Shown here in pieces: positions 22,254 through 61,791 of a DNA stretch of 64,000 nt; the first letter of the stretch is position 1; each line of letters opens with the position of its first letter. The notes below the pieces were generated by a model. That model was given only the letters and a program-made list of their open reading frames with translations, did not search any database and had not been told where the DNA came from. The position numbers and the translations under genes were made by a program. The DNA lies in assembly GCA_947561395.2 (NCBI GenBank), contig OX387185.1:24371866-24435865 (forward strand), given 5' to 3'. The stretch comes from Buxus sempervirens. Lineage: Eukaryota > Streptophyta > Magnoliopsida > Buxales > Buxaceae.

Positions 22254-22489
22254 TGTATCCGGCATTTAATGTTGGATACACTACACTTCCTTTGTATCCG
22301 GCATTTAATGTCGGATACACTAAGCTTCCTTTGTATCCGACATAAAATGTCGGATACAAACACAATTATTTCAAAAATTCAATTTTCTGAGCGAATCCAC
22401 ACGAATCTTGCGGCCAAATCTCTTGTATCCGGCAATATATGTCGGATATGCACAAAATTATGTGTATCCGATATATATGACCGGATACA
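22254..22489. repeat. Palindrome array, Z copy a (5 hairpins)
   Basis: Five 27-nt units lie at 22254-22280, 22293-22319, 22332-22358, 22424-22450 and 22463-22489. Each has a left arm like TGTATCCGACAT and a right arm like ATGTCGGATACA around a short A/T loop. The third unit is a perfect 12-bp stem with a 3-nt loop. The first two keep pairing through G-T wobbles. The array lies directly upstream of the LTR TATA box on the minus strand. Confidence 0.9.
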
Positions 22490-22734
22490 AACACGATATT
22501 TACATATTTGCCCCTCGACTTGACCGATTCGACCGATTTGACACTTTTAGATATTTGCAGATTGCCCCTTGCGAATTTTGGTTTAGTCCCTGAGATATTT
22601 GACAAGTTTTGGATATTTAAAGATTGCCCCCTGAGATATTTTTCTGTGTTTGTCGCCACATGTGTAGTTCTCCACGTGTGCAGCTTCCAGTTTTGCTGCT
22701 CAGAAACCTTGGCAGCTCATATCTTCTTCACCCA

Positions 22735-22919
22735 GACTCCGATTCCAGCAAACTTAGTTGCGTTAGAACCGTATCGAAGCCCTCTATCCCATGGCATGGG
22801 GGTAAGCACCTAGATCGGGGTTTAGTAGAAAGTCAACTTTCGGCTCCCCTTCAAGTTTGACCGGCCTGCAGAACCTTCATCCGGACTCCGATTCCAGCAA
22901 ACTCAGTTGCGTTGGAACC
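22735..22919. repeat. Tandem ~150-bp unit in X-family LTR (copy a)
   Basis: The block 'gactccgattccagcaaact' with 'agttgcgttagaaccgt' occurs twice (about 22736 and 22883). V1 is inserted in the second copy. The same doubled block occurs at 27893/28047 and, more diverged, at 54845/54990. Confidence 0.75.
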
Positions 22920-24729
22920 TGTAGACACCCCAAATTGCATTACAAAATGAGAAAATAATTGAAAATATCAATTGGGATTTGAAACAGGTCAAAAATGCAC
23001 AAAATTTAATCATTTAAGCAGTGCCCGTATTGTATATGCGGGCTGGTCGCACCTGAAATTGTTATATGGGCATGCCACACCTGTATTGAGAATGCGGGCA
23101 CCACTTGCCCTCAATGTATGTACGGGAGCAAGAGATTTGTGCGAATTTTATCCTTGCTCGATTTCTGAGCCAATCTGCATCCAAATATCTCTTTAGATGA
23201 GCGAATTTATTTATTTATTCGTGTGAATTATCATTGTTGGTCATGGATGGGCATTATCCTTATTTTCAATTCAATCTGGTGGGATCATGGTATATCCTTC
23301 TGGACCAGCCATACCCCTGGGTTTGCCTATAAATAGAGGTGAGATCCTTAAGCAAAGGGCCACGAAATTTTGAAGTCTAAGGAGCTCCAAGTGAAGAGAG
23401 GAATCCCTGCTACTCTGCTTGCTCAATCCAGGTAAGTCCCTTTTTCCCTTTTATTTTCTGTCCTCAATTCTAGAGATAATAGGATCTTCTCTATTGCTTT
23501 AGAATAAGGCCTGGCTTATACTTGTATTCCTAAACTTGCCTCCAAGTACCTCAAGAATCCTCTCTAGCCGTAAAACGTGAAGAGAGAGCTAGGGGAAAAG
23601 AGAACAGGTGGATCCCTAGAATAGAACCCCATAATCTGTTTTTCTCCTTTTTTATAAAATAAGGCCTTTGATTGTGATTGTATACCCAAACCTATCTCTA
23701 AGTACCTCAAGAATCCTCTCTAGCCATAACACGTGAAGAGAGAGCTAGGGGAAAAGAGAACAGGTGGATCTGTAGGGTAGACCCCAATGTGCTCTAATCT
23801 GTGAGATGTGGCTGCTTTGGATATTCTGATCATGTTTTAATGGTTTTATTTTGAATATAAATGAATCATATGAATCAATGATGTTTATAGCATGAGATCC
23901 CCACATTTTTCTAAAATTTGGATTTTTCACATCTTTGCACCTACAGCACTGTTTTCGTGATTTTTGGGATATTAGGCTAAGATCCTAGATCTATCATGAT
24001 CTATATGATAGATCTGGATTCAGAAGCCTGAAAGTAATTTCTAGGGTTTCATGAAGTGGTTTTTTAGTCTTTTTTCATGTTTGAGAGAAGACCCTATGGT
24101 CTAAGTTCTCCCCTTTTGATGTTATTCATCAACGTGGGTATTTTTGGTTTTGATTTCTTAATTTAATGTGAAATTTGGGCTATATCTATGTCCTGGACTG
24201 TTCAAGTTCAATTCTACAATATTTTATAAAAATCATATTTTTCTAGATTTCTAGAATTTAACTTGAAGCCAGATTTTTGAATTTTTCACTTTAGATTGGT
24301 TTTATTTGATTTTATCTCAATTTTATCTTAATCATGAAACCCTAGGAATGGTATGATCATATTTGAAAGTTCTGAATCAATCAGGCTATTCGTATGAAAA
24401 AACCATACACTTATGTCTTTTTTGTGATTTTTTATGATTTTTGTAGTAAGCCTTCTTTATTTTAACATGAACAATGCCTGGCAATTACCTTGTGTGGATG
24501 AATAGGGGTGCCTAACACCTTCCCCTGTTCATAACCTAATCCCCTTACCCATCTCTGGTTGTTTTTTTAATAGGGTTATTTTTACCCTAAATTTGCCTTT
24601 TTGTGCTTATTTGATGATTTTGGTGTCCATTCACACCTAAACAGAATGGTGGTGACTCTGTGTTTTTTTACCAATCCCGTGTGATGATTAGGAAGTCATT
24701 GAATTGATTTTCCCATGTCTCACAGAACC
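22915..24729 (+). mobile_element. Solo LTR 'V1' with TSD GAACC
   Basis: An 1805-bp solo LTR at 22920-24724, starting TGTAGACACCCCAAATTGC and ending CATGTCTCACA, with GAACC at 22915-22919 and 24725-24729. V2 (42988-44765) is its close relative in opposite orientation. It holds a TATA box (23328-23336), a conserved GTAAGT donor (23432), a GCCCG/CGGGC palindrome (23023-23043) and the 'ttggtgtccattcacacc' block near the 3' end that is shared with V2 and T. This is the innermost layer of the nest. Confidence 0.93.
23328..23336 (+). promoter_or_regulatory. TATA box in V1 LTR
   Basis: TATAAATAG, 104 nt upstream of a CAG|GTAAGT donor at 23432. The same box-to-donor spacing occurs in T (61955 to 62058) and V2. 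Confidence 0.6.
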
Positions 24730-25712
24730 GTGTCGGGATTCTTTATCCATTGAGATAAAGTAAGATAGCCAATTATCATTTGATCAAAAAGTCAATTTTT
24801 GTCTCCTCAGGGTTTGAATTTCCCGCCAGGGTTTCCATTTTCAGCACTTCCAGGGGTGCAAAAAATAAGGTGCTTACACATGGTTCTTGGTTTGAGTCAA
24901 TTTGGTTTCTTACCCGATTCCTAATCCAGCATGCACAATTGGTTAAGTCTGGCGGGACCGCCAAAGTGGCGTGGGTCCCTTTACTTGATTTTATCTTCTT
25001 AACCTAGAGTGATCTGAGTCTAATCGGGCAGGCCCCATTGGAAGGCCTGCGGATCCCTTGGTGGGCTTGGTTAAGCCCATGTGTCCCCTGGTGGGCCTCA
25101 GTCTAGCCTGAAAGGCCCTTTGGGCTTTGGTTCAAGTGAATTTGATTTTATTTGATGTTCAAGTTGGAAATTAAGTGATTTTCATACAAAGTGGGCCAGG
25201 ATTGCTTTGTGGGCTCCTAAGCGGGCCACACCATTGGTTGCCAAGTGATTTTGAGTTATCTTGATTAACTGTGCCAAAATAGGCCAAGCTTTGGGCTTGT
25301 GGCCCTTTACCTGGGCTTGGGCTTGAAAGCCCAAGACTTCCTGAGTTAGGGCTTGGGTGCCCTAATCTTTGTTGGGTTCAATGGGCTTAGTGGGCCCGAC
25401 AAGCCCTACCCGTGGTCTCGGCCAAACCATGCCTAAATCTAAGCATCATGCTTCCCAAGTTGGGCTTTGGTGGGCCTCCAATGGTGTGGCCCACTCATTC
25501 AGTTAGATTATCTTGATTTAGCAAAAGTAAGTTTGTCGAGCTTGGTGGGCCCTGTTGGAAGGCCTACAGGAAATCAAATTGGATCGGGTCGGTCCGTGGC
25601 CCATCTTGGGTCTCCGGTTGACCCCGGAAACCCTTCTGGTTCATCCAAATTGGTCAACAAAGCATGAAAATAGCAAAAGATCATAAAACAGCAAAAATTG
25701 GCATTTTAACAG

Positions 25713-25777
25713 TGTAGCCGATCTTATCCGTCGGCTACAAACAAAGTTACTTGTAGCCGACCATGATTGTTGGCTAC
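25713..25777. repeat. Distal palindrome pair, Z copy b
   Basis: Units at 25713-25739 and 25752-25777 have arms TGTAGCCGA / TCGGCTACA, with the second right arm TTGGCTAC. The T-A pair of the ATCC/GGAT arms is replaced by G-C on both sides. Confidence 0.85.
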
Positions 25778-27397
25778 GAAGGGAACCCTGCTGATCTGAC
25801 CTGGGTTGTCGGATCAGCTCAAAAAATGGTTTTTTCGTATTTTTTGCATTGGGCTTAGTTCTGGGGCTTCCTAGGGATGTTGTAAAATTATGTGGGCCCC
25901 AATGCAGGCCCACATTGGTTCCAAGAGTGGGGGATGCCCTAAATTGGTTTCTTTTGGTATTTTTCAACAAAGAAAGGGGGGGAGGAAGAAGGCATAGGGC
26001 TGCCTCTTCCATTTTTGGGTCATGCACAATACTTAACAGGGACCATGGGGTCCCTGTTTTGATCTTCCAACCCACCAAACAGCGAGCAAAAAAATTCAAC
26101 CAGAATTAAATGGACAAGAAAACATAAACCCATACATTTAAATGAGCCTATCACTGTATTCTCCTATGCAAACCAAGGACATTGTGTGTGCATGTGCCCA
26201 TGGGGCCATGGTGAGAAAGTGAGCATAAATGACCTATCATGCCTTCTAGCTTTAAAAAGAATTGATGCATGCAATGTGTGTATGAACCAAACTAAAGGGA
26301 GCAAGCCACTCAAGCATACGTGGGTGAAATACATGCTGTGAAAGAGCAGGAGCAGTAATCATTTGGGTGAGAAATCATGCTAAGGCAGGGGCTAGGAAAC
26401 AGCATAAGAGGGAGGGTGAGAGAAAGATCCTTCATGCTTGCTAAGGGGTTGGATTGGGGTGGTGCCTTGATGGGGATCATGCTTAGGCCAACAGTTGAAC
26501 AGTTGGAGATAGGGGGATCATATCAACACTCAAAACAGCAAACTAAAGGCTTCCATACATTGGGGAAGAACAAATTAATGCACACACATAAAACAGCCAA
26601 CCTAAGAGGGCAAAGGGGATCATGCTCGTGCAAAAAAAGAATAATAGCATGTTGGTGGATGCATGCGCATGTTCCTACTTTCATACCCTTCAAAGAATGT
26701 GTAATAGAGAGAGCATACAATCATACCAAAACAATCCAGCAAAATGGTGAGAAAATGAAGGGAAAGTGGGGGGTTATTCAAGGGTACATTAGATTGTTGA
26801 AGAAAGGGAACATGCTCCCTTGGAATAATGGTGAGACAAGCCAAAAGAAGCATGACAAGTGCTTCCAAATGGGATCATAGACACACTTGTCAAGGCCTCT
26901 CCTCTTCTCATTCGGATACTAAACCCTCCTCTTACCATGGGAGGTCATCTTCATGAAGGAAATAAAGGAAAGATGGGGGAACAACATGTTGGAGAACACC
27001 TCATGGTAAGACAAAACAAAGCTTTCCAATATGCTCAAGATCACTTCATTTTACATATGTGAAGTAAGTAATGGAGGGGGACAATACCTTGGGTTTTGCT
27101 AACCCTGGAGTGTGGCGTACGACCTCATTTGAAGCAAGGCAAGGGGCTGGAGCAACTCCTGTTGACACCAACAGCAAGTCGTCCTTCTCCTTCAAGTGGT
27201 AAGTGGTGAGGATGAAGAAGGGGGGAAGGATGGAGGGTTAGGATAGTCAAAAGAGAGGTGTTTAGGGCTTGGGGAAGCAAGTGAGGGGAAGAAGGAAGGA
27301 TTTCGGAGCCGGAGCAAAGGGGAATAAGAAGTGAAATCAAGCCAAGAAGAGCCAACCCCCGAAATGGGGCTGCTGTTGCCTTTTTATAGAAAAATTT

Positions 27398-27653
27398 TTG
27401 TATGCGGCATTTAATGTCGGATACACTACACTTCCTTTGTATCCGGTATTTTATGTCGAATACACTGCACTTCCTTTGTATCCGACTATTCGACATAAAA
27501 TATCGGATACAAACACAATTATTTCAAATTTTTAATTTTCTGTGCGTATTTGTCAGCGAATCCGCACGAATCTCGCGGGCAAATCTCTTGTATCTAGAAA
27601 TATATGTCGGATATGCACAAAATTATGTGTATCCAACATATATGATCGGATAC
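27398..27653. repeat. Palindrome array, Z copy b
   Basis: Copies of the same five-unit array as at 22254-22489 lie near 27398-27424, 27437-27463, 27476-27510, 27588-27614 and 27627-27653. Some arms are degraded (for example TGTATCTAG). The minus-strand TATA 'ctataaaaag' abuts the array near 27380-27390. Confidence 0.85.
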
Positions 27654-28232
27654 AAACACGATATTTACAGATTTGCCCCTCTACTTGACCGATTTGACAC
27701 TTTTGGATATCCGCAGATTGCCCCCTGCGAATTTTGGTTTAGTCCCTAAGATATTTAGCAAGTTTTTGATTTTTAAAGATTGCCCCATGAGATATTTTTC
27801 TGCGTTTGCCGCCACGTGTGCAGTTCTTTTGCCACGTGTGCAATTTCCGGTTTTGCTGCTTGGAAACTTCAACTGCTCATATTTTCTTCACCCGGACTCC
27901 GATTTGGGCAAACTCAATTGTGTTAGAATCGTATCGGAGTCCTCTATCCATGGGGATAGGGTTAAGCAGTTGATCTGGGGTTTAGCAGAAAGTCAATTTC
28001 CGCTCCCCCCCAAGTTTGACCGGCCTGTAAATCCTTCATCCAAACTCCGATTCCCGTAAACTCAGTTGCGTTAGAACCGTGTCGGGATTCTCTATCCACT
28101 AAGATAGGGCAAGGTGGCCAATCATTGCTTGATCAAAAAGTCAATTTTTCATCCCCTCGGGGTTTGACTTTCCAGCTAGGGTTTACATTTCCAGCACTTC
28201 CGGGGGTGCAAAAATGAGGTGCTTACAGAAGG

Positions 28233-30059
28233 ATTTTTAGTTTAGGGGCCAAGCATCATTTCAATTATGCCTTTATGAATGGACTGAGATTATATTGGAG
28301 AAGTTCAACCATATTCTTCACCAGGCAGACATTTATGGTGCAGTTGCTGCTTCTCGATAGGCATACGATAGGCATCCAGAAGTATGGTGAGCTTTTTGTG
28401 AACTGTGGAGTGTTCAGTCCAATACACTCCATATAGGTGGGGGAGAGGTTGGCATCTTTCTTCATGAATTGAAGGTTATTGGTGGTTTGCCCATTTTTGG
28501 TGCTATCTATGAAGAATTCATCCCTATTAATTAGGAGTTACTTTCCTTGGGAAAATCTGGAGAAGGTCAACACCTGTTGGTGGTAAGGGAATTGCTGAAA
28601 ATTCATAGTGATATTTGATTATATCTTAAGGTGCAATCAATTAAATGACACATATGGATTGAGCACTTTTACACAGGGCCCGTGCTATACTCTCCTTTTG
28701 GTGAGAGTAGTGCCCCCGGTGGACAGAAGAGATCGTCCCGACGTTCACCAAAGGGACCAGCAGAAGATGGAAAGTTGAAATTGCCCTTGAATATTTCAGA
28801 ACGTGGCGAACTGGCAGCTTATTTGGCTTTATGGTTAAGCCGCTTTGTGGTGCCCTATGATCAAGATGTTGTGAGGCCAGAGACTTTTTTGATGGCTTCC
28901 TTGATGGCATAGGGTACGGTTATTTCTTTGGTGCCAGTTGTATTGGGGCTCATTTATCATGTCATGGGAGAGATAGTTACCTGTCCAAATGGCCCAGGGT
29001 ATTCCAATATTCTTTTCCCGAGTCACTATGTCACGGCATGGCTAGTAGAGCATTTCCCTTGCCTTTATATCAGCCGTTCTGATGCTGAATTTCCACATGG
29101 TTATCCTCATATGGTGAGCTATGCTGGCGTGGAGGCAACCCGGAAGAACAAGTTTGAAGTACGGACAATGTTTCGACATGACCGTCATTTTATTGTCCGG
29201 CCTACTAGTTTTCCAGAGGAGGATGATGTGACCGTTATTGATCAAGAAGAGTTATCTAAAGAGAGATTTGATCTTTTGATTAGCATAAGGTCTGCTTTGC
29301 TTCCTATACGGATTGGTCTGAACTCTTGGTTGGAACCTTACTATCCGAACTGATTTGCCCATCAATTTGGTTTTGACCAAGGAGTGCCTTCTAACAAACT
29401 TCTATTTAATTTTAGTCAGAGAAGCAACCGAGGCATAGAGGATCTGTTCGTGGCGTGGCACCGATTCCTTCAAAGGAACAATGGTGCTTATTTTCAGATA
29501 CCGAGGATGAGCCGAGCCGGTATATGCACATGGTATTATGTGTGTTGGTGGGCCAGGTAGGCATTTCCTTATTTAGGCCGACCTTTGGACGAGGTTCTTT
29601 CTGTTTTGATTGGAAATCCTTTCAGAGCTCCACGAGGCTTCGTGTATGTTGTGAAAAATCTTCGTGAGATATCCACTGGTTTGAAAGGATTACAGCATGT
29701 ATCTAGGACTCGTCCTTTGTCAGATTTTGGGGATAAATGCCCAACTCCTACGCTTGCAAGCCCAAGCCAGTCAATTCTGGATGTTCCACCACTAAAGACA
29801 CTTCATGTTGAAAAGGATCGTGGCACTTTTATCACTGAGAGTCCCAGCCAGTCACTTCCTGCTACTACACCAGTGGAGCAACTCCATACTAATGATGGAC
29901 GGGATGTTCATTTTAAAAGGGCTTGCTATCATAGGCTCGGTGATTCAGAGGATGACGATGATGACACCAGCAATTTTGTGGTAAATTTCCGTAACTCTAA
30001 GAGTGGCACATCAGCATCTTCTAGCAAGGAAGATCAGTTAACCATGTCTGGTGTCCCTG
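28233..30059 (+). pseudogene. Antisense PMD ORF of element Y, plant mobile domain core
   Basis: This is the central part of the PMD protein and continues the phase of the N-terminal part. Family signatures include LHQADIYGAVAAS, LHIGGGEVGIFLHELKVIGG, AAYLALWLSRFVVP and VAWHRFLQRNNGAYF. Plant mobile domains (PF10536 type) occur in MULE and Ty3 elements and in host MAIL/MAIN-like proteins. In-frame stops are TAG 28238, 28358, 28532, 28910 and 29558, and TGA 28388, 28616, 28646 and 29351. None is TAA and no frameshift is needed across the segment. After the domain comes an acidic Ser-rich linker (DSEDDDDDTSN). The exon ends at 30059, where a 97-bp intron starts. The nonsense codons fit C-to-T change in CGA, CAG or TGG codons, which is inference. 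Confidence 0.82.
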
Positions 30060-30156
30060 GTATGTGTAGTATAAATTAGTATTTAAAGTTTCATTATTGG
30101 AAACTCTTGTGATAATATTCGAACTTGACTGACCCTCTTCTTTTTTCTTGGTACAG
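30060..30156 (+). other. Spliceosomal intron in the PMD ORF
   Basis: Donor CCTG|gtatgtg and acceptor ttcttggtacag|ac. It is 97 bp, contains in-frame stops and a pyrimidine-rich 3' end. Removal keeps the frame. An intron in this direction shows that the ORF is meant to be expressed from the strand opposite gag-pol. Confidence 0.8.
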
Positions 30157-33719: not shown

Positions 33720-33930
33720 TGACTTTGACGTGGAAGCAAAGAGCGAGCTTCAAAAGAAAGTGGACTTCGTCACATCCAGCATCCAAGATTACGGGAAGTC
33801 TGATCAGGATCTCCAACAGGCTCTGCATGAAGCTAGGGAGGATAAGCTTCATGAACATGTGTGGATTACTTTGTTGATGATCAGATTGGAGGAGAAATTT
33901 AGTGGAATGAGTCAGACTTTTTCTGCTTAG
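33720..33930 (+). pseudogene. Antisense PMD ORF of element Y, C-terminus
   Basis: After W1 the frame continues the coiled coil (VEAKSELQKKVDFVTSSIQD, LQQALHEAREDKLHEHVW) and ends at stop TAG, 33928-33930. Summing the four coding pieces (373+1827+565+211 nt) gives exactly 992 codons including the stop. The whole ORF is therefore in one phase once the two insertions and the intron are discounted. Confidence 0.8.
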
Positions 33931-42258: not shown

Positions 42259-42987
42259 TCATAGACACTTAAAAGTGCTGGGATGCGCTAGCACATCATA
42301 TTTGACCCCATGATCAATTTTAGGATCTTCCTCGGCTTTATCCTTGGGGTTGCTTTTTAAAGCTTTTTCTGCTGCCCCTTTATTAGGAACATTATTTTCT
42401 GATTCAGGGTTCCCCAAGCGCTGTCCAGAACGAAGTGTTATTTCATCCATTTCTTGGTTTGATTCGACCTCCTCATTCACTTCAAAAGAGGCCATGCAAC
42501 ATGGCATAACTTCTTCTTCGAGCAAGTCGTCTTCTGATAAATCAAGCTTGACATAGTCTTTCAAAGTGAACGGTATTCTTTCAGGCTGTTCGTGCTCATC
42601 CTCTGGCGAGACCGGTACTTTCTTTTGTGCCTTCTTCTTCTTCTTCTTGGAAGCCTTCTTTTTCTTTCCAAACCATCTGCTGCCACGAGAGGTCATTTCT
42701 GAGGAATCGCCTAGTTAGGAATCAGGTGCAGCTTGCCTTTGTGTTCTTTTGCTTTTGTAGGTTTGCCAACCATCCCCTACTTCATCCTATGTGATTAAAG
42801 AGTCATCCTAATACTCCAAATTTGGTTCAGTCATGAGCTCATAGAGCGTGGGAATATTGGGATTACCACAATGTGGCATGTCCAGATAGGCATAGACAAT
42901 AGTTGTGTCATCACCCGTTTTGAATTCTACCGGAATGGCCGCTGGTGGCAGTGAGGCGGTCTGTACTGGTTCACCAACCAAAGACAC
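42259..42987 (-). pseudogene. Element Y gag-protease linker
   Basis: A charged linker. 42987-42808 continues the gag frame after V2 (VGEPVQTASLPPAAIPVEF), and 42696-42259 is Lys-rich then acidic. Both are in the same frame, with stops between them (the first at 42808-42810). No catalytic domain is present. Such linkers are usual in large Tat elements. Confidence 0.7.
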
Positions 42988-44770
42988 TGTGAGACATGGA
43001 AAAATCAATTCAATGACTTCCAAATCATCACGCGGGATTGGTTAAAAACACAGAGTCACCACCATTTTGTTTACGTGTGAATGGACACCAAAATATCAAA
43101 TAAGCACAAAAAGGCAAATTTAGGGTAAAAATAACCCTATTTAAAAAAAAACAACCAGAGATGGGTAAGGGGATTAGGTTATGAATAGGGGGAAGGTGTT
43201 AGGCACCCCTATTCATCCACACAAGGTGGTTGCCAGGTATTGTTCATGTTAAAATAAAGAAAAAAGGGCTTGGTACAAAAATCATGAAAAATCACAAAAA
43301 AGACAAAAATGTATGGTTTTTTTCATACGAATAGCCTAATTGATTCAGAACTTTCAAATATGATCATACCATTCCTAGGGTTTCATGATTAAAATAAAAT
43401 TGAGATAAAATCAAATAAAACCAAAATAAAGTGAAAACTTCAAAAATCTGGCTTCAAGTTAAATTCTAGAAATCTAGAAAAAATATGATTTTTATAAAAT
43501 ATTGCAGAATTGAACTCGAACAATCCAGGATACAGGTATAGCCCATATTTCACGTTAGATCAAGAAATCAAAACCAAAAATACCCACGTTGATGAAGAAC
43601 ATCAAAAGGGGAGAACTTAAACCGTAGGGTCTTCTCTCAAAAATGAAAAATGACTCAAAAACCACATCATGAAACCCTAGAAGTTACTTTCAGGCTTTTG
43701 AATCCAGATCTATCATACTGATCATGATAGATCTAGGATTTTAGCCTAATATCACAAAAATCACGAAAACAATGCTGTAGGTGCAAAAGTGGTGAAAATC
43801 TCAATTTTAGGAGAAAAGTGGGGATCTCATGCTATAAACATCATGGATTCATTTAGATTCAAAATAAAACCATTAAAACATGAACAGGATAGTCAAAGCA
43901 GCCATATCTCACAGATTAGAGCATATAGGGGTCTACCTTACGGATCCACCTATTCTCTTTTCCCCTAGCTCTCTCTTCACGTTTTATGGCTAGAGAGGAT
44001 TCTTGAGGTACTTGGAGATAGGTTTGGTAATACAAACACAATCAAAGGCCTTATTCTATAAAAAAGGAGAAAAACAGATATGAGGTTCTATTCTAGGGAT
44101 CCACCTGTTCTCCTTTCCCCTAGCTCTCTCTTCACCTTTTATGGCTAGAGATGATTCTTTAGGTACTTGGAGGTAGGTTTAGGAATACAAAATAAGAACC
44201 AGGCCTTATTCTACAGTAATGGAGAAGATCCTATTATTTCTAGAATTGAAGACAGAAAATAAAAGGGAAAAGGGACTTACTTGGATTGAGCAAGTAGAGC
44301 AGCAGGGATTCCTCTCTTTACTTGGAGCTCCTTAAACTTCAAATTTTCGTGGCCCTTTGCTTAAGGATCTCACCTCTATTTATAGGCAAACCCAGGGGTA
44401 AGGCTGGTCCAAAGGGATATACCATGATCCACCAAATTGGATTGAAAAATAGGGATAATGCCCATCCATGGCCAACAAAGATAATTCAAACGAATAAATA
44501 AATAAATTCGCTCACCAAGAGATATATTTGAATGTAGATAAGGCTCAGAAATCGAGCAAAGATCAAATTCGCACAAATCTCTTGTGCCCGTATTCTTAAT
44601 AAGGGCGCGGCATGTCCGTATATAAAATTCGGGCACGACTAGCCCGCAAGTACAATATGGTCATTGCTTAAATGATTAGATTTTATGCATTTTTGACCTG
44701 TTTTAAATCTCAATTAATATTTTCAATTATTTTCTCATTTTGTAGTGCAATTTGGGGTGTCTACAGACAC
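42983..44770 (-). mobile_element. Solo LTR 'V2' with TSD GACAC
   Basis: A 1778-bp solo LTR (42988-44765), starting TGTAGACACCCCAAATTGC on the minus strand. GACAC flanks lie at 42983-42987 and 44766-44770. It is nearly colinear with V1. Its minus-strand TATA is the reverse complement of 44376-44384 and its donor is CAA|GTAAGT at about 44280. It interrupts Y gag, which resumes in phase. Confidence 0.93.
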
Positions 44771-46483: not shown

Positions 46484-46494
46484 ACTGCTGATTT

Positions 46495-47349: not shown

Positions 47350-50300
47350 TGTTGACCAAAAATTTGAATCTCAATCATTTCTGATCAAACATGATTTCAC
47401 CCAATTATGTGGGCTTTTATTTCATGGGGTACAAACCCATCCAGGGCGTCTAGGTTACAGAACAATCCCCTTAATTACAACTCTAAAACATTAGAGAAAA
47501 CCCTTTGATTCTAACTTCATTTTCACAAGACTTGATTACTTATATGGTTGGGAATGATTTGGTTTGTTTTAATTGCGACTGAACCTGGTTTGATTTGTCG
47601 GGTTGCCTACGTACCCAATTATATTGGATCAAGTCATAACGTAGTTCAAAATTAATTTAAGTTTGAATTAAGGGTAAGAGATCTTACCTTATATTTAATT
47701 TGGTTTATTTTAATTAATTGGACCATTAAGATCCAGTTTAATTGGGTTTAATTTGAATGGCTTAATGTTTAAGGCATTGGACTGTAAAAGATCATACCTT
47801 AAATTAAACCATTTGAGTTTAATTTTGAGTTAAACCGCAAAGAGGAAACGGTTTGATTTGAAAAGATTTGATTTGATTTGAGTGGTTCAATTTCAAAGGC
47901 ATTGGACCATAGAAGATCATACCTTAATTGAACCAAGAAGTTTAATTTGTTTAATTGATTTAATTTGGGTTGAACCGAAAGGGGAAAACGATTCAATTTA
48001 AGGGAATTTAATTTGGTGTGGTTTAACCCCAAGGCATTAGACCGTAGAAAATCGTACCTTAGATTAAACCACAAGGTTCAATTTGATTGATTAGTTCAAT
48101 TAAACCACTTTTATGACTTGAACCGTAAAAGGGAAACGGTTTCGATTTGTTGGTTGAATTTAATCACTTTAATGTGTATGGGGGTTGGTTTGAACCATTT
48201 TCATTATCCCATTAATTACATAGTTTGGTTCAATTTTAAGATAATTTTGGTTCATTTTAGCTTTAGAACAATTTCGGTTCAATTTAAAATGTTTATAATT
48301 TAGTTTTAGTTTAAGGACGATTTCGGTCCAATTTGGATTTTAACTTGGTTTATTTTAGTTTAAGGACAATTTCGGTCCAATGTTGAATTTAATTTGAATT
48401 TTATTTGGTTTATTTTAGTTTAAGGACAATTTCGATCCAATTTGGATTTTAATTTGGTCTATTTTAGTTTAAGGACAATTTCGGTCCAATTTGAATTTTA
48501 ACTTGGTTTATTTTAGTTTAAGGACAATTTCTGTCCAATTTGAGTTTGATTTGGATTTTATTTGGTTTATTTTAGTTTAAGGACATTTCGGTCCATTTTA
48601 AGAGGTTTTTTTTGGTTTAATTGAGTTTAAGGACAATCCAGTCCAATTTGATGGAGAACCATTATGTTGGACATTTAACGGTTCAATTTGGATTGAAATA
48701 GGACTTTCTGGTTCAATTTTGAACACTTTTGGGACACATTATGGGTTGGTTCAAAGCACTTTTGGGTGCATTTAATCACTTTTACATGAAAAAGTGAAGT
48801 AATTTTATTTTTACATCATGGGTTTTGATGCAATTTTGGGATGTTTGGCTTCTAGAAAGGTCCAATGATTTTTAGGGATTTTCTGGAATTTTCCTAGGGC
48901 CAAATTGGGCTTGAATTGGGCAAACATGCACATTCCTAGGTCAAACCGAGTAGGTTTTGTGGTTCATAGAGCTTTGGTTCAGGCGGTTTGGGCTTGTGGT
49001 AATCCGCGGGTCAGATGGTCCGAGTGAAATGGATCAGGGCTGAAGCTTGGGTTTGGGCCGAGACAAAGGTGCGCGGGCTATGCATGATGCGCCTGGGCCA
49101 TCTCGGCCCATTGCTCTTTTTTTTTTTAAATTTATTATTCTTTTTTTTAACGAGCTGGCGGAGCAGGCCTGATTTGTTGTGCGGGTACAAGGCTGGATCG
49201 GACCGATATAAGCCCGGGCATGTATATGGGCCGGCGGAGCGTGCATGGGCCGGATTGGAGCGATTACCGTATTTGGGTCATAGCGGGCCTTAATACCTGG
49301 GCACGCGGGTCTTGGGCACGGCCAAGCCGGATGCGCCTAGGTTTAAAGCGCCTGGGCTAAGTGCACGGCCCAGCCTGCTGTCTGACGCATGCAAGAGGCC
49401 AAGATGTGGCCTAGGATGCTGAAAAAGTCCCTTTTGCTCGTTGTTTAGCCTCAAATTTGCGATTTCTACCACCTGCCGACTTCGGGATGTTTACAGATCC
49501 CTTTTTTTTGCTGAATTCTGGGTATTTTTAGCCCAGTTTTATGTCTTTAAACTCAGATTTTAACCCATAACCTTATTTTAATAATTTTGGTTCATTTTTA
49601 TGGAGTTTTCACACAGGAGTCCGGGTGACCCAAATATGAGTCACTCTTCTTTTGGGAGTTCATCTTGTAAAGTCCAAGTGGTCCTGAAAAGAATCCCCGG
49701 CCCTTCGGATTTGTTTCAAGGAAGAAATTGAAGATTCCCTCATCTTTAATTGTAATCCAATTAAGATACAGAGTCCAGGCGACCCTAATAAGAGTCCCTG
49801 ACTCTCTGAAATCAAACGGAGAACAGAATTAAAGATAAGGGATAAGATTAGGGGAAGAAAAAGAAGAGATAAACCTAATGTAAGTTTTACCTTCTCTTCT
49901 CTGTGATAACCCTTCGTAACTCTTCAAATCAACCTCCTTGTTTTCCTCCAAAAACTCTTCGTATCCTTCTCTTTCAAAACACTTTTTTCCAACCTCCTCT
50001 AAACCTTATCTCTTTGGCTTTTTATATAGGTGGATTTGTAGCATGTGTGGGAAGTTATAACTTCCCACACTCCATTCCACGATTGAGAGAAGTTGTAACT
50101 TCTCTCAACTTTCTCACTTATCCCCAAAAAAAGGGGACGTTTTGTTCCCTTTTTTTGTTTTAATTTAATTAAAGAGTAATAGGGAGGGGGGAGGGGGGGG
50201 ACACATGGCATGTGGTCCCCACCTCTTAAAACAAATTTTGACCTCTTAAAACAAATCTTGAGAAGTCGTGCATGTGCACCACCATGTGAATTTTTATTTG

Positions 50301-50392
50301 AAACTTATTTTTTTTTTTTTGGGGATTTCTTTGGGACGTGGCCTACAATGCCACGTCATCAAAGATATGCCTATTTTTTTTAGGTGCAAACA
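47350..50392 (-). repeat. 5' LTR of element Y
   Basis: A 3043-bp LTR, partner of 16179-19202. It carries the same tandem array (48300-48625), G-run (50181-50200) and TATA (50019-50030). It differs by small indels, for example a short duplicated 'gacctcttaaaacaaat' near 50239 and an extra 'gggaagttataacttccc' inverted repeat near 50049. Confidence 0.95.
48300..48625. repeat. Tandem minisatellite in Y 5' LTR
   Basis: Same ~54-bp units as 17130-17480 ('ttttagtttaaggacaattt', 'cggtccaatttg'). Confidence 0.85.
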
Positions 50393-50710
50393 GGGCTCTT
50401 TTTAAAGAAAGAAGTAGGGCCCGATAGGCCCAATCCCTAGTCCTAGCCAAACCAAGCCTAATCTAGCCAATACATGTTTCTCATTGGGCTTTTACTTGGG
50501 CCTCAAGTGGTGTGGCCCTTAATTAGGTTGCTTATTGCTTAAAGCCTATTAGTTGGACTAGGTGGGCCCAATTGGAAGGCCCACAGGTGCTCAAGTTGGG
50601 ACCACTAGGTCGAAGGCCCATGTTGGGTTTCGGATTGACCCAAAAACCCTACTGGATGGATTAGTTCAATAAACAAGGGGAATCAAATATAGGTTTTTCG
50701 GGTGTTCTAG

Positions 50711-50776
50711 GTGTATCCGAAATTAAATTTCGGCTACACCTCAAACCTACATAGCCGAAATTGTATTTTGGCTATG
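50711..50776. repeat. Distal palindrome pair in X
   Basis: Two inverted repeats: GTGTATCCGAAATT/AATTTCGGCTACAC (about 50711-50739) and CATAGCCGAAAT/ATTTTGGCTATG (about 50750-50776). The position within the LTR corresponds to 25713-25777 of Z. Confidence 0.8.
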
Positions 50777-51206
50777 AAGAAAACATAGCTTGCCCGACCT
50801 GAGTTTTCGAGCAAGCACTGAAAATAAATTTTTTGTGGTTTTAAAAAGGGGGTTGGATTCTCTAGTCCTTAAAGGTGACCAGGGAATGTGTGGGCCCGTC
50901 AGTGGGCCCACAATGGCCTGGGTTTAAGGAAATGAGCCTAATTAGGCTCATTTCACTTACTTTTACACCAATGAGAGGGGGACTAAGGCTTGGGGCCTTG
51001 TCCCCCCTCCTTGAGCAGAAACTCAAAGAAATAACAGGGACCAAGAGTGTCCCTGTTCTGGTTTTGGAAGCATCCCCACTCCTTCCATGGGGAGAAGAAG
51101 GGGAGTGGCCCAGTTGGCCTAAGATTGGGTCTACTCAGCCACACCATTTCTCATGCCCATATAATCCACACAAAACCAACCATATAAAGAAGAAAATAGG
51201 TGTTAA

Positions 51207-53461: not shown

Positions 53462-55174
53462 CTCCAAAGTAGGCAAGAGTGCACATGCATATATGAGGTG
53501 TGTGTGTGATTTCTAAAGAGATCAAAGTCATAAGAAAGTCTAACATGCTTTCTAATTTCATGCAAGCATATATGAGATGTGGCCAAATACATGCAATAAG
53601 GTGTAACTTATCCATGCAAATATACTAAAAGAGAACATGCTTAATCCAAGCAAGCATGCATGCGCATCACCACTATCACACCAAAAGGAAACAAGCAAAA
53701 GTGCCAAACAACATCCAAAGGACAAGTAGAAGAAAGGATAAGGGGGGAAAACCTTATGGAGGGATACATGGGACATGAATAAGGAGAACATGCTCTCCTA
53801 TAACTTAACAAAATGGAAGTAAGAAGAAATAGAAAAAAAAAAGTGTTTTAAAAGGAGACTCTAGACACTATAAACTTGGTCCCTCCTCCTCTCTTTTGGG
53901 CTTGGACACTTCCCCCTACCATGGGAAGCTACTTTTATGGAGGCAATAAAGATAAAGATAGAGAGAAGAAGATAGAGGTGCAATAACATGGTAAAAGAGA
54001 GCAAGAACATCAAGACATGCTCATATCTCACTCATTCTCATATATGTTGAACAAATATGACAAGAGAGCTTGCCCTGGGGTTTGGAAGTCTCTTGGGTGT
54101 GTGTTGAAGTCCCTTGAAGCCTCAACAGTGGATGGAGCACCTCTCCTTCAAGTTCCAAGTGATTCTCCAAGCTCCTCTTCAGTTGAAAGTGAGGAAGAAG
54201 AGGGAAGGAAGGTGTTGGGAGGTGTTAGGAGGTTAAGCGAGTGATGGAGGGGTAGAGAGAAGGGTTTCGTACAAGGGGAGGAGAGGGAGAAGAGCCAAAA
54301 TCACCAACCCATGCAAATGAGCTACTGATTTCATTTTATAGACAAAAATAATGTAGCTGAAATATCAGGTCGGCTACATTATTTATATGTATAGCCGGAA
54401 ATAATTTTCGGCTATACATATTTTCTTTGCATCTAAAATACAATTTCGGATACATATGTGTCTTGTCAGAAATGATTACCTGTAGGGATAAGGTCAGAGA
54501 ATCCTGACGCAAAATCTGGGAATCTTATCTTGTATCCGAAATATAAATTCGGATATTTTTAGGAAATATCTGATTTTCCCAGATTTACCCCCTTCTCTCT
54601 CCAATTTGGCTGATTTGATGTGGATTCTCTCACTTAATGAGAGAATCTGAATTTTGATTTTTTTTAATTAATTTAATTAGCAAAAATGAGATATTTTGAG
54701 AAATAACATTATTTTATTCAAGATATTTTCTTTCTTGTCCTTCACTTTCGCCACTTGGCAGATGTGACTTGCACATTCGCCACGTGGATAGCTTTTCTAC
54801 ATTTTTGCCCTTAGGGTTGCTCTGCTCATAACTCCTTTATCTGAACCTCGATTCTGGCAAACTCAGTTGCATCAGAACTGTGTCGGGATTTCCTATTCAT
54901 CGAGATAGGATATGGCAGCCAATTCAGCTTTGACTAGGAAGTCAAAAACTACTCCCTAGGGTTTGATCTGCTCATAACTTCTTTATCCGGACCCCAATTC
55001 TAGAAAACTCAGTTGCATCGGAACCATGTCGAAATTTCCTATCCTTCGGGATAGGATATGGTAGCCAATCTGGGTTTGATCAAAAAAATCAATTTATGCT
55101 TTCTAGGGTTTGACCTGCCTGTTAGGGTTTTCATTTCCGGCACTTCCGGGAGGTGCAAAAATGAGGTGCTTACA
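53462..55174 (-). repeat. Remaining 5' part of LTR X
   Basis: Outer part of X on the minus strand. It includes U3 palindromes (54350-54555), the doubled ~150-bp unit (about 54845 and 54990) and the TGTAAGCACC terminus. ORFs here are chance frames. Confidence 0.8.
54350..54555. repeat. Palindrome array in X U3
   Basis: Units at 54350-54380 (arms AATGTAGC/GCTACATT), 54386-54420 (TATGTATAGCCG/CGGCTATACATA), a partial one at 54429-54453, and 54531-54555 (TATCCGAA/TTCGGATA). It abuts the minus-strand TATA at about 54335-54342. Confidence 0.88.
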
Positions 55175-55179
55175 TGTTG

Positions 55180-56189
55180 GTTTATTTATTTCTAATGATT
55201 CTTAAACTTGTTCTAAATAATTCTATTCATTAAAATTTATTTAATTGATTAAATAATTTCATGGTTGTACGTAGTTGAAACCACATAAAGATATGCGTTT
55301 CGGATTTGGATTTGTATTTGTTGTGGCAGTATCATGAATAAAATCATCATATTGCATTTATACCTGCAAGAGAGTGAAATGTGAGGACTAATACCTAATA
55401 ATCATCAATAACTATGGAATGGGTGAGGTGTGAGGGATAATTCCAACAGCCACTAATAACCTAAAATTTTGATATTGTGATCCTTGAATGTTGTAGTAAA
55501 AAAGATTTATGGAGACCAAGACTTAGCTTGTAGGATGTGGATTACTTGTGAAACTGGACTTGAATTTCAATCAGGTATATAATTTAGATGAGAATAAGGT
55601 TTTGTTTTAGAGCCAAACCATCACAACGGTGTCATGAAATCTACGATTGTACTCCTCTTTCCAAAAATAGTGGCTCATTATAGTGTTCAATCGGTTGAAA
55701 GCAAATTTTCTTGCAGAATACTATAAAGAAACTCTTTATTATCCTCTGGGGATAGGATCATATAATGGGAATGTGTGCTGGCTTGGGTTATCTAAAACAA
55801 CTTTATAATGTATTACATAACAAGCTGTAAGTAAGGTGGGAGAGGACTTACATAATTGCCACTCTGCAGATGTCTAGCTATAGTATGTGGATGCATGCAC
55901 TATTCACATACATATATTACACACTTATTTGTGCATGAGTTTACAGGTTTTGGTGTATTTGTTTTATATAGATATCATCTTTAGGAATTCATGCTTCCTA
56001 GTTATATGTTATTTTGCATTAGTCATTATCATAACTGCATACATGTTTATTTTATGATGTTTATATTCTATATGTTACTATTTTTAGTATGTATGGTTGT
56101 ATATTTTATAAGAGTTTCTTATTGGGACTGAAACTCTAGGATGGAAGCCTATTAAGCATTGCTCTCACCTATCATATTTTGCAAATAAT
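55180..56189 (+). repeat. Central part of U between X and the copia element
   Basis: Non-coding. It includes the repeated 'agtgaaatgtgaggac' and 'ggtgaggtgtgagggat' modules (55374-55460) and the block shared with 800-1230 and inverted 1690-2150. No ORF of interest. Confidence 0.55.
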
Positions 56190-56194
56190 GAAGT

Positions 56195-56432
56195 TGTTAG
56201 AAATCGTACAGCAACAATAAACGAAACAGAAAATAGAATAAACAAGAGACACGATTTACGTGGTTCAGCAAGGATGCCTACGTCCACGAATGATGAGGTT
56301 CCTTTCCTTAATCTGTGAAAAATAGGGTTACAAAACACACAACCCTCTCCTGGCTGAAAAACAAAGCTGGCGCTAAGTGTACAATATGGCCCTTATCTAA
56401 ACATTGACTTAATTCAAATCACATACACGACA
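56195..56432 (-). repeat. 3' LTR of the copia element (shortened)
   Basis: It matches the 5' LTR except for a central segment of about 65 bp net that is missing and replaced by 'aagctggcgctaagtgtac'. Termini are TG...CA. Confidence 0.92.
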
Positions 56433-56444
56433 AATCTCCACCTT
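56433..56444 (-). other. Copia polypurine tract
   Basis: Minus-strand AAGGTGGAGATT lies directly upstream of the 3' LTR. Confidence 0.8.
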
Positions 56445-56536
56445 GACTTGAATCATGTCAATCTCCTGGACACCCTTTCCTTCCCGCATTGTCTTCTTAA
56501 GAATGCAGCTCAACACCCATTATAGGTGTTGTCTCC

Positions 56537-57209
56537 TCAATGTCTGAGCAAGTTGATTAAGCCCAAGCAATACTTGAACTTCTCTGTTGGTAGCACCTTG
56601 GTTAACATGTCTGCATCATTGTCCTTTGTATTCACCTTACAAAGATGAATTTCCCTTTCTGAGATATATTCTCTAATTTTGTGGTATCTCACTGCAATGT
56701 GTTTAGTTCTTGCATGATAAACTTGGTTCTTTGCTAAGTGAATAGCACTCTGGCTATCGCATCCAATCCGTACACTTCCTTGATTCATGCCAAGTTCATT
56801 AAAAATTCCTTTCAACCATATAGCTTCCTTTGCTGCTTCCAAAGCAGCCATGTATTCAGCCTCTGTTGTTGATAAAGCAACCACCCCTTGAAGTACAAAC
56901 CTCCAACTCCCCTCCTGTGAGAGTGAATACATATCCTGTAGATGACTTCCCTTTATCTAAATCTCTTGAAAAGTTAGAATCTACATAACCAGCCACATGA
57001 TTTGAAGATTCACTTTTCTCAAATAGAATACCAAGGTTCTTAGTTCCAGTCAAATATCTGAAAATCCATTTCACTGCACTCCAATGTTCTTTCCCTGGAT
57101 TTGCCATGTATCTGCTAACCATGCTCACTACATGAGCTATGTCAGGTCTTGTACATACTATGGTATACATCAAACTACCCACTGCACTGGCATAAGGAAC
57201 ATGAGACAT
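56537..57209 (-). pseudogene. Copia RNase H
   Basis: Two overlapping frames. The first has YVDSNFSRDLDKGKSSTGYV with the first catalytic Asp. The second has TEAEYMAALEAAKEAIWLKG and IGCDSQSAIHLAKN with the Glu and second Asp, then HARTKHIAVRYHKIREYI. Frame changes occur near 57200 and 56900. It ends shortly before the PPT. Confidence 0.88.
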
Positions 57210-58276
57210 CTCAGTTTTTCTTCTTCAGTAGAAGGACACAATCCTGCACTCAACTTGAAATGTGCAACAAGAGGTGTGAAAACAAGTTTTGCTTTATTCA
57301 TATTAAATCTTTCTAAAACCTTCTCTATGTAATTTCCTTGTGAAAGCCACAACCTCCCTTGTTGCATATCTCTGTGGATTTCCATGTCAAGTATTTTTCT
57401 AGCATGTCCTAAATCCTTCATGTCAAATTCATTTCCCAACATGGATTTCAACATATTAATATTAGACATATTCTTCACAGCAATTAACATGTCATCAACA
57501 TATAGCAACAAATATATGTAGGAACCATCACAAAGAACTTTAAAGTAAACACAACAGTCATACTCACATCTTGTGTAGCCTTTCTTCATCATAAACGAAT
57601 CAAATCGTTTGTTCCATTGTCTTGGAGACTGATTCAAACCATAGAGAGACCTCTTCAACTTGCAAACAAGGTTCTCCTTCCCTGGTTCTTTGAATTCTTC
57701 AGGTTGCTGCATGTATATCTGCTCTTCCAACTCTCCATGAAGAAAAACCGTCTTCACATCAAGTTGTACCAATTCAAGATTGAACTGGGCTACCATGGCT
57801 AATAGAACTATTATTGAAGTATGTTTCACAACTGGTGCAAAGATCTTATTGAATTCAATCCCTTCCTTTTGTGCATAACCTTTTGCAATCAACCATGCCT
57901 TATACCGTTCAGGTTCACCTTTACTTGTAGCTTCTTTCTTTCTGTATGTCCATTTGCAACCAATTGCCTTCTTTCCTTCGGGTAGTTCCGTCAACTCCCA
58001 AGTCTTGTTCATGTGCAAGGACTCCATCTCCTCATTCATAGCAGTCATCAATTTATTATTATCTTCATAATTCATGGCTTCCTGAAATGAACATGGATAT
58101 CCAGGTGCAGTAATGAGAGCAAAAGAAACCATATCATCAAAGCCATACCCGACAAGTGCTTTCTTTTCCCTTCTTTGTTTGTCCCTTGCAATGATATGAG
58201 TTTCTTGTTCACTAGATGACTCTCCTTGAGGCATATTACAATGCTCTTCATGCTCAACTGTATCATCTAGCTCCAC
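57170..58276 (-). pseudogene. Copia reverse transcriptase
   Basis: A full copia RT: WTYRKKEATSKGEPERYKAW, GYAQKEGIEFNKIFAPVVKH, LVQLDVKTVFLHGELEEQIY and the catalytic YLLLYVDDMLIA. It is in the same frame as the integrase, separated by TAG at 58334-58336 and a short linker. A frameshift near its end moves RNase H to another frame. Confidence 0.92.
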
Positions 58277-58333
58277 CTCAACACGAAGTGTATCCTTTTC
58301 TTGATGGTCATCTGGTTGCGATACTTCATCATT

Positions 58334-59320
58334 CTACTTTCCATGTTTCAGCAAATGTGATTCATCAAAGACCACATCTCTACTAGTGAACACCTTCTTA
58401 GATTCAAGATCCCAAAGCTTGTATCCCTTTACACCTTTCTCAAACCCAATGAAGATGCATTTCTTTGATTTTGAATCAAGCTTGCTCCTTTCTATGCTTT
58501 GAATGTCGACATATGCTCGGCATCCAAAAATCTTCAGCATCGAATAGTCTGCTTGTTTTCCTAACCATACCTCCTCTGGGGTCTTGAAACCAATAGTTGT
58601 GGAGGGTGACCTGTTAATTATGTTGCAAGCCATGTTGATAGCTTCTGCCCAAAATGACTTATCAAGATCAGCAAGTAATCTCATGCTTCTAGCCCTCTCC
58701 AAGAGTGTTCTGTTCATTCTTTTTGCCACTCTATTTTGTTGCGAAGTCCCCTTATTTGTAAAATGCCTGGCAATTCCTTCATTTTGGTAATACTCCATGA
58801 ATTTTGTATGCTTGTATTCTGCTCCATTGTCTGATCTGATACATTTCAGCTGTTTGCCTGTTTGCTTTTCAACTTCTGCCTTCCATCTCCTGAAGATCCC
58901 AAATACTTCAGATTTATGCTTTATAAAGTAAACCCATACCTTCCTGGAATAGTCATCCACAAAAGATACAAAGTATTCTGCCTTTCCTTTTGATGGTACT
59001 GGTGAAGGCCCCCATACATCTGTATGAACATAATCCAACACTTCCTTGCTTCTATGAGTTCTAGTATTGAATTTAACCCCGCATTGTTTCCCATACAAGC
59101 AATATTTACAAAAGCTGATCTTGCAATTTTTAACACCTTTCAACAGTTTCCTTTTATGAAGTTCCATCATACCCTTTTCACCCATGTGCCCTAATCTTGT
59201 ATGCCAGTGATCACTGTCATCATTATTATCATCTAAGGTTGTAACTGCAGCTCCACCTACAACTATATTCCCTAGCAGTTTATAGAGGTTTCCAACCTTG
59301 TGACCCTTCATGACTATCAT
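58334..59320 (-). pseudogene. Copia integrase with altered catalytic Glu
   Basis: The GAG-pre-integrase zinc segment (HWHTRLGHMGEKGM ... CKYCLYG), then core residues: Asp in YVHTDVWGPSP and Asp in IRSDNGAEY. At the third position the family has E in a GVAERxNRT block; here it reads NRVAKRMNRTL, so the catalytic Glu is Lys. The C-terminal part (FGCRAYVDI, KKCIFIGFEKGVKGYKLWD) is normal. It is predicted to be inactive. Confidence 0.9.
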
Positions 59321-59740
59321 GGCACCCTTGGATTCTTTAAGAACTCCACCTTCTGCTATATATTTACATCCATTGGAATCTAATACTCCCAGAGAGATTA
59401 GATTTTTGGTTAAGTCAGGAACATGTCGTACATCACTAAGAGTTCAAACTGAACCATCAAACATCTTAATTTTGATTGTTCTTATTCCAATGGACTTACA
59501 GGAAGCATTGTTTCTCATCAAAATAGATCCTCCATTAAACGGCTCATATGTATCGAACCAATGTCTATGAGGACACATATGCCAAGAACAACCAGAATCT
59601 AAAATCCACGAATCTTCAAATTGATTCTTAGCTGATGTAACTGATAGGACATCCGCATCAGACTCATCTAAATATCCTTCAGCTATACTTGCTTAATTAG
59701 AAGAAATACCTTTTCCTTTCTTCTTTTCCAGATCCATCTT
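59321..59740 (-). pseudogene. Copia protease region
   Basis: Minus-strand translation near 59610-59560 shows WILDSGCSWHMCPH, the Asp-Ser-Gly active-site motif of copia protease, followed by the usual segment leading to LISLGVLDSNGC (about 59400-59365). Stops near 59697 and 59445 break the frame. Confidence 0.8.
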
Positions 59741-60492
59741 GCATTTCCTGCAATCTCATTTCATGTGTCCTACTTTCTTGCAGTAATAACATTTGAACTC
59801 CTCCTCACCTTTAGACTTGGATTGAGTCCTAATACTGTTGAACTTCTCTTGTCTTGTTCTATTACATCCCCAACTCTTTCCTTCAGCCACAAGGCCTTCA
59901 GCCCATGAACCTGCAGTTGCAGGTTTCCTCTTCATCTCGTTTGACAGAAGTGCTGCAATAACCTCTTCCAGTTCCAGAGTGTCTTTCCCATAGAGCAAAG
60001 TGGTTACTAGGTGTTCATACGAAGCAGGAAGTGATGCTAAAACAGCAGTGCCTTATCTTCCTCTTCAACCTTAACTTCTATGCTCAGCAATTGAGAAATG
60101 ATCTTGTTGAATGTATTTAAGTGTTCCAACAGCCCAGCTCCTTCTGCCATTCTAAGTGTGTACAATTGCTATTTTAAGAATAGCTTATTCGTCAAGGATT
60201 TCATCATGTACAAGCTTTCGAGTTTTACCCAGATCGTAGGAGGAGATTCATCATCGATGACATTGTACATCACCTCATCCGCAAGACATAATCGAATAGT
60301 GCTTACCACTTTCAGTTCCAACTCTTCCCAATCATCAATGCTCATACCTTCTGGCTTTTTCGTTTTTCCGTACAGTGTTCTGTGTAGACCTTGCTGTATG
60401 AGGAGATCTTTAACCCTCCGTTGCCATAAGCCAAAATTTCCCTTTCCGTCAAACTTGTCTACCTCAAGTCTGTGGGAACCCTTTGTTGCCAT
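59741..60492 (-). pseudogene. Copia gag with zinc knuckle
   Basis: It starts at ATG 60492 (MATKGSHRLEVDKFDGKG), just inside the PBS. A UBN2-like gag domain follows (FGLWQRRVKDLLIQQGLHRT, WVKLESLYMMKSLTNKLFLK). A frameshift occurs between 60169 and 59998. The knuckle (CYYCKKVGHMK, followed by a stop where the last Cys-containing segment begins) ends the segment. The longer ORF upstream of 60492 is LTR sequence. Confidence 0.85.
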
Positions 60493-60513
60493 CCCTCCGA
60501 TGTGAAGAACCTC

Positions 60514-60525
60514 GCTCTGATACCA
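60514..60525 (-). other. Copia primer binding site
   Basis: Minus-strand TGGTATCAGAGC, complementary to the 3' end of plant initiator tRNA-Met, three bases after the 5' LTR. Confidence 0.9.
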
Positions 60526-60527
60526 AT

Positions 60528-60830
60528 TGTTAGAAATTGTACAGCAACAATAAACGAAATAGAAAACAGAATAAACAAGAGACACAATTTACATGGTTCA
60601 GTAAGGATGCCTACGTCCACGGATGATGGGGTTCCTTTCCTTAATTTGTGAAAAATAGGGTTACAAAACACACAACCCTCTCCTGGCCGAAAAACAATAC
60701 AGTCTCTCAAATTTGACCAGAAACCCTAACTCTTGGGTTTTATACAAGAGCCACCCAAGTTATAAAAATACCCCTCATACGGTATGGCCCGTATCTAAAC
60801 ATTGACTTAACTCAAGTCACATACACAACA
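60528..60830 (-). repeat. 5' LTR of the copia element
   Basis: 303 bp with TG...CA ends. It contains 'tacatggttcagtaaggatg', a block also found in the remnant at 13370-13690. Confidence 0.92.
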
Positions 60831-60835
60831 GAAGT

Positions 60836-61543
60836 ATACATGGATCAGGAGCAAGATGTAGCTTAAGAGTAAACTATTTATTATTTACCTTATCAACACA
60901 ATCTGATATTGAATTGATTTACTTAGAGTAGGAGAGTAGACAAATCGATTGATATTGGGATATTATGTCAAATTCCATAGGTTCATATTTATGATTAATA
61001 ATTGTTAAAGATTCGATTTATATTTCAGACTATAGTTATGAATTATGTATTTTGGAACTATATTTATTGGATTTTTGGTTTCTAAGTACAAGATCTTGGT
61101 TTATTTTGTTTGACACAAGCACGAATGAGTGAGGGTAAATATCCTTTGCCTTGCAAGATCTCTAATACATACTTGGAATCGAGGCGTGGCAATATGATTA
61201 CACTATTTGTCATAACCATATTTTATATATTGTTCTATAGTATTTGCTTCTAAATATACATGATATACTAACTATAAATGTAAAATCTGTATAACCATAT
61301 TTCACATACAGTCACACAATAGTAATTGCACTAATTAAAGCTAACATGCCTATTATTTACCATGAAAACATGCCCTAATGTCTATTCTTCCCTTGAATTC
61401 TATGAGAGTTCTTTTTGACCTTTGGACTCTGTAGTTACCATTTTAGATATTTGTCCATAGTGTCAAAATGTTGATGACGTGTCCTTAAATCTCAAATCTA
61501 AGTAGGACAGGTACATCCGAACGTTAGCTTAAACCGTTTTACC
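60836..61543. other. Rest of U and flanking non-coding sequence
   Basis: 60836-61191 is the presumed end of U. 61192-61543 is AT-rich with no ORF or repeat I could identify. Confidence 0.4.
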
Positions 61544-61643
61544 TGTAGACACCCTAAAATTGCGCTGGAAAAATAATGAACAATTGGCAAAAATCATTCT
61601 TTCCTTTGAAACCAGCACAAAATTTGAGAATTAAACATTTTTT

Positions 61644-61791
61644 CTTGTATCCGACAAATCAGGTCGGATACAAGCGTATCCTTTTATATTCGACAGAAGT
61701 TGTCGGATACAAGCAGGTATTAATGTATCCGACGACATATGTCGGATACATATATATCCTCTTGTATCCGACCTGATATGTCGGATACAAG
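61644..61791. repeat. Palindrome array in T (4 hairpins)
   Basis: Units at 61644-61674, 61681-61713, 61724-61750 and 61761-61791. Arms are CTTGTATCCGAC / GTCGGATACAAG with 7-nt loops. The first and last are perfect 12-bp stems. They lie 165-310 bp upstream of the TATA box. Confidence 0.92.

Follow-up and report, generated by a model that had tools for sequence, protein, structure and literature searches.

What maintains the arrays of short palindromes that lie in the long terminal repeats (LTRs) of several retrotransposon families in Buxus sempervirens? The question is raised by a 64,000-nt stretch of contig OX387185.1 (assembly GCA_947561395.2, positions 24,371,866 to 24,435,865 of the forward strand), called the window here, in which an initial annotation had placed palindrome clusters in LTR families named Z, X and T. 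We favor the reading that these arrays constitute a putative promoter module of symmetric protein-binding sites rather than RNA hairpins, with a probability of about 0.6. A dimeric protein site of the CCG-N-CGG type was among the options of the initial annotation, and it is the one that fits best.

The palindrome arrays are real and far above chance. Scanning and inspection by eye gave 24 array units in the window, and units were found at all the places annotated as clusters. Perfect-arm palindromes (arms of at least 9, loops of 3-15, low complexity removed) number 35 in the window vs 1-4 in each of five dinucleotide-preserving shuffles, and by reading of the scan 12 of the 35 fall inside the arrays. 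Family loci were then added, 20 each taken from 40, 55 and 40 listed matches. A relaxed scan with up to four mismatches detected 125 units with 9-nt loops in the window and loci L016-L035. Four of these units are the window T array counted a second time through L016, and chance probably accounts for a few weak rows (window 37613, L017 4034).

The strongest signal in the arrays comes from their spacing. In the genome searched (676.5 Mb, 247 contigs), exact TGTATCCGA/TCGGATACA arms separated by 3-11 bases occur at 6,077 places, and the loop is nine in every listed row of this search. Exact arms with 0-8 and 10-38 intervening bases number 33 and 122, respectively, so by subtraction the loop is nine in at least 5,922 of at most 6,232 exact-arm units, i.e., at least 95%. 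Because forward TGTATCCGA and reverse TCGGATACA arms mostly alternate at 18 bp (arm to arm) and 21 bp (arm to next arm) when one mismatch is allowed, the arrays consist of a 27-bp unit repeating every 39 bp. In the sampled loci, the loop is nine in 275 of 283 units, and of 179 distinct neighbor pairs, 158 have a period of 39, 12 have 38 and 9 have some other value. The loops had been described as freely varying, which holds for their sequence (81 distinct, mean pairwise identity 0.43) but not for their length, nearly fixed at 9 nt. In the Z loci, 98 of the 100 loops and 56 of the 57 spacers keep their length, whereas ten of the 21 gaps between sub-arrays have the modal length; among the rest, two (115 and 116) probably reflect a missed or lost unit. 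This contrast is only modest because the copies are related.

A second arm type keeps the same core. GCCCGTAT and ATACGGGC with 1-15 bases between them occur at 3,744 places genome-wide; the loop is five bases in all 50 listed, and of 100 listed rows, 98 have the next unit at 28 bp (21-51 permitted). At 11 bp, the difference between these two periods (28 and 39 bp) is close to one helical turn, which is suggestive only. A CCG-N11-CGG core is common to both arm types, and related LTRs bear one or the other. Nine of the 20 X-type loci fetched are without TGTATCCGA units and show, by eye, GCCCGTAT- or GTCCGTAT-type palindromes. The same replacement is seen in two T-type LTR pieces of the window, one nested in the left Z LTR (22920..24724, plus strand), with GCCCGTAT-type dyads, CCG-N11-CGG at 23025 and no TGTATCCGA array, and the other at 42987..44766 (minus strand), with GCCCGTAT-type dyads and CCG-N11-CGG at 44616. 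When dyads were surveyed in an array-enriched sample of 250,901 bases, in which spacings below 6 were unable to reach threshold, CCG-N11-CGG gave 73 cases with symmetric flanks, the most among the non-palindromic trinucleotide dyads tried, and other CCG spacings gave 0-4; several runners-up are shifted readings of CCG-N11-CGG units.

The arrays also recur at similar positions. In the Z loci, the CGG core ends 15 bp (12 loci) or 16 bp (2 loci) before the TATA box, with 14 of 22 loci scored. For X, 14 of 21 loci were scored, and the distance is 16-17 in five and 14 in two that carry the second arm type. That the array abuts the LTR TATA box in Z and X was thus borne out in the scored loci, mostly at 14-17 bp. 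In the T family, three of 21 loci were scored, with the TATA inside the array.

In the window itself, the Z-family LTR array at 22254..22489 (minus strand) has five units (22254, 22293, 22332, 22424 and 22463) with a 39-bp period inside each of its two sub-arrays, and, on the minus strand, 15 bp separate its TATA box from the last core. The second Z LTR array (27398..27654, minus strand) also has five units. Its unit at 27477-27511 (35 nt) is an insertion variant with an 8-nt insertion, which turns up among the exceptions with 10-38 intervening bases, and one decayed unit was seen by eye near 27588. The X-family LTR array (54350..54557, minus strand) has four units, with a 38-bp period in the first three and position-5 types of G-C, G-C, T-A and T-A in order; its LTR begins with TGTAAGCACC at ~55174. 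The T-family LTR array (61644..61791, plus strand) has four units at a 39-bp period in an LTR that begins with TGTAGACACCC at ~61545 and has its TATA near 61953. Outer units 1 and 4 of this T array are nearly reverse complements, making the whole array a longer foldback, and reverse-complement loops 117 bp apart are common in the outer units of T arrays among the listed places. We do not take the whole-array foldback as selected because several copies, by eye, are without it.

Two further clusters had been annotated as pairs, at 25713-25777 and 50711-50776. The units are present, but both clusters are triplets. The distal Z cluster (25713..25818, minus strand) has two TGTAGCCGA/TCGGCTACA-type units (25713 and 25752) and a TGATCTGA/TCGGATCA unit (25790-25818), and contains a third core flank, TGATCCGA. 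The cluster at 50712..50816 (strand not assigned) is of the distal type, with a mixed TGTATCCGA/TCGGCTACA unit (50712-50738), a unit at 50750-50776 and a third at ~50788-50816, the second and third read by eye. The promoter array has five units in most Z loci, and the window copy adds the distal three. The distal cluster with its TGATCC-type unit recurs ~1.1-1.7 kb downstream (sense) of the Z promoter array in L021, L026, L028, L032, L033 and L035, and is also found in L025, L027 and L036, three loci with no promoter array scored beside it.

Compensatory change between arms had been put forward as evidence of selection on pairing. The paired changes are borne out, but selection on pairing as such is not supported. 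Changes in both arms are more frequent than in a within-array permutation at positions 2, 5 and 10, position 5 being T-A, G-C or A-T, while no excess was found at 9-19, 11-17 and 12-16, nor in the loop. Mixed T/G units at position 5 number 165 vs ~1,640 expected by independence, tenfold below, by a formula that ignores relatedness. The within-array permutation is safer, although related arrays (e.g., L060, L064 and L065) still recur in it; of the 95 arrays, one was dropped as identical, and position 5 was informative in 34 of the remaining 94.

Such paired changes are also what RNA hairpins would produce, if the units were transcript stem-loops (the unique 3′ region, U3, at the 3′ end and the distal cluster in the leader) serving as a processing, packaging or small-RNA signal. 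Array RNA indeed folds far better than shuffles (z of -6.9 to -13.7 over six strands, both orientations), position 5 changes on both sides with three pair types, and the outer flanks of the distal unit are complementary. However, the claim that pairing survives through G-T wobbles was not supported. Because the LTRs of Z and X lie on the minus strand, plus-strand G.T is A.C on the element sense strand, where 73 G.T cells were counted vs 137 A.C cells. Since most of this difference comes from Z and the copies are related, we hold the claim to G.T not being favored over A.C. Comparison of the window with Rfam gave no match at the gathering score. Small RNAs are reported in PMC10760457 and PMC5311732 to be attracted by maize Sirevirus palindromes, and the foldback of array RNA is probably a by-product that could feed small-RNA silencing in a similar way. 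Small-RNA targeting is likely a side effect because the array RNA folds strongly on both strands. We consider it unlikely that RNA hairpins are what the arrays are kept for.

Symmetry could also be maintained without selection on a bound protein, by cruciform or hairpin DNA or by arm-to-arm correction via template switching in reverse transcription, and symmetric states where no single base is preferred would agree with this. Yet correction should reach the loop, while 31 of 93 distinct Z units have A-C at pair 9-19 and the pairs farther inward lack any excess; moreover, CCG-N11-CGG in both arm types is left unexplained, making this origin very unlikely. Alternatively, the arrays could be an inert by-product, derived from a single ancestral palindrome that multiplied through tandem duplication and was carried among LTR lineages by recombination. 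The units do appear duplicated, unit loss is seen between copies, and transfer of whole units would shift both arms together and mimic compensation. Inert descent is nevertheless improbable in view of the one core spacing across different arm types, the similar TATA distance in scored Z and X loci, and the lengths conserved against a variable gap in the same Z loci.

For the observed geometry, recurrence, position and symmetric substitutions of the units, we therefore return to a promoter module bound by protein. A protein site on duplex DNA is preferred because internal spacing is fixed, the period is regular, the TATA distance is similar in scored Z and X loci, and matched half-sites flank unmatched centers. 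The arrays would be upstream promoter modules of the LTRs, each unit being a two-fold symmetric DNA site in which two CCG half-site cores face each other at a fixed 14-bp step. The duplex unit would be bound by a symmetric protein, dimeric or higher, and tandem units at 39 or 28 bp could lead to cooperative occupancy just upstream of the TATA box. Occupancy may tune retrotransposon transcription, presumably by activation or repression. The core flanks (TGTA[T/G/A]CCGA, GCCCGTAT and TGATCCGA) would set specificity, and LTR lineages may change type through array swapping.

Several observations weigh against this promoter module. Simple inheritance from a single ancestral unit could account for the constant length within one arm type. 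No TATA distance was obtained for eight of the 22 Z loci or for seven of the 21 X loci, and the other 7 of the 14 scored X rows give 1, 7, 7, 19, 19, 42 and 42, deviations that we read as a TATA within the array or a farther unit. The window T array lies ~160 bp upstream of its TATA box. Position-5 alternatives with three bases, matched in most cases, occur within single arrays, which is awkward for one protein. Finally, the outer flanks of the distal TGATCC unit vary between copies yet stay complementary, which a simple half-site model does not predict. The first outer pair is complementary in 12 of 16 rows (shuffled mean 5.8, p 0.001); six of the 16 are weak matches and maybe not distal units, all ten with at most one mismatch are paired there, and no excess is seen at outer pairs 4 and 5.

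A wider proposal is that a putative plant family of DNA-binding proteins, whose dimer geometry is a rigid CCG-N11-CGG and whose half-site code diversifies (TGTATCCGA, TGTAGCCGA, TGTAACCGA, TGATCCGA and GCCCGTAT), governs many LTR promoters, including those of Ty3/gypsy elements. LTR lineages would switch arrays to follow or escape a host- or element-encoded regulator, in an arms race or addiction. We regard this as doubtful. If the promoter-module reading itself is right, one invariant CCG-N11-CGG ruler links the promoters of several abundant LTR lineages, and a single factor family may therefore control much of the retrotransposon transcription in the genome. The arrays are a ready probe (27- or 21-bp duplex) for pulling out the factor, and the discrete arm types permit a direct test of regulator change by LTRs.

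As for element class, a Z-type LTR in L035 follows a polypurine tract-like AAAGAGGGGCAGC, and the same strand carries frames for rve, RNaseH and RVT_3 upstream of it. If LTR and frames are one element, as we infer, this LTR is apparently that of a Ty3/gypsy element. Protein coding was rejected for the open frames tested in the neighborhood of Z and X, which (among 20 frames) gave no match in Pfam. Elsewhere in the window, a 3.0-kb LTR-like repeat pair, 93% identical (16179-19203 and 47350-50393), encloses Ty3/gypsy frames on the minus strand that include a second RNase H-like domain; these repeats hold 49/60-bp tandem units (17030-17562), and no CCG/CGG palindromes were seen in those units. 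Between the X and T LTRs, minus-strand Ty1/copia frames (RVT_2 and integrase) occupy 56194-60697 between two 171-bp repeats (94%). Downstream of the window, the open frames at L016:7568-9642 have domains of the FAR1 DNA-binding and MULE transposase types.

Three known systems resemble the arrays. Gal4-type zinc-cluster sites are dimer sites of the form CGG-N11-CCG, and likewise have two inverted CGG triplets 11 bp apart, but their polarity is the reverse of that here and the protein class, Zn2Cys6, is fungal. A search of the open-licence literature for the Gal4 spacing gave no match, and of 1,144 papers there that contain the arm strings, the 30 listed look like chance (primers and the like). 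LTR activators of the Tnt1 box I type are likewise symmetric or repeated motifs. Tnt1 box I and other LTR activator repeats are named in Bousios et al. (2010, PMC2829016).

The same paper describes the repeated motif (RM) boxes of Sireviruses, arrays of CGG-CCG palindromes in the LTR before the TATA box, so the initial statement that no LTR system like this had been described was too strong. RM boxes occur in at least eight copies per element and form CpG islands, and by our reading all RMs in Table 3 of that paper except Tnd-1 (12 of 13) are CGG-N4 to N6-CCG. The likeness extends to tandem palindromes with CCG and CGG cores, clustering in the LTR before the TATA box, family-variable flanks and extra copies away from the LTR promoter. 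RM boxes lie a short distance upstream of TATA, as do the scored Z and X arrays, whereas the T array is ~160 bp away. Unlike the short-spaced CGG-CCG of RM boxes, the core here is CCG-N11-CGG, reversed in polarity and with the same spacing in two arm types. In 2010, RM boxes were described there as Sirevirus-specific and absent from classic elements; Sireviruses are Ty1/copia, unlike the Z-type LTR in L035, one case, which appears to be Ty3/gypsy. Among the open-licence papers listed by our searches, we recognized no report of CCG-N11-CGG arrays in Ty3/gypsy LTRs. Because element class (for Z), polarity and spacing differ, we do not file the arrays as RM boxes. By analogy they would work like RM boxes, and we place them as a variant extending the motif type known from Sireviruses, their nearest known case. 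If this is right, palindromic CCG/CGG promoter arrays reach beyond the Ty1/copia Sireviruses.
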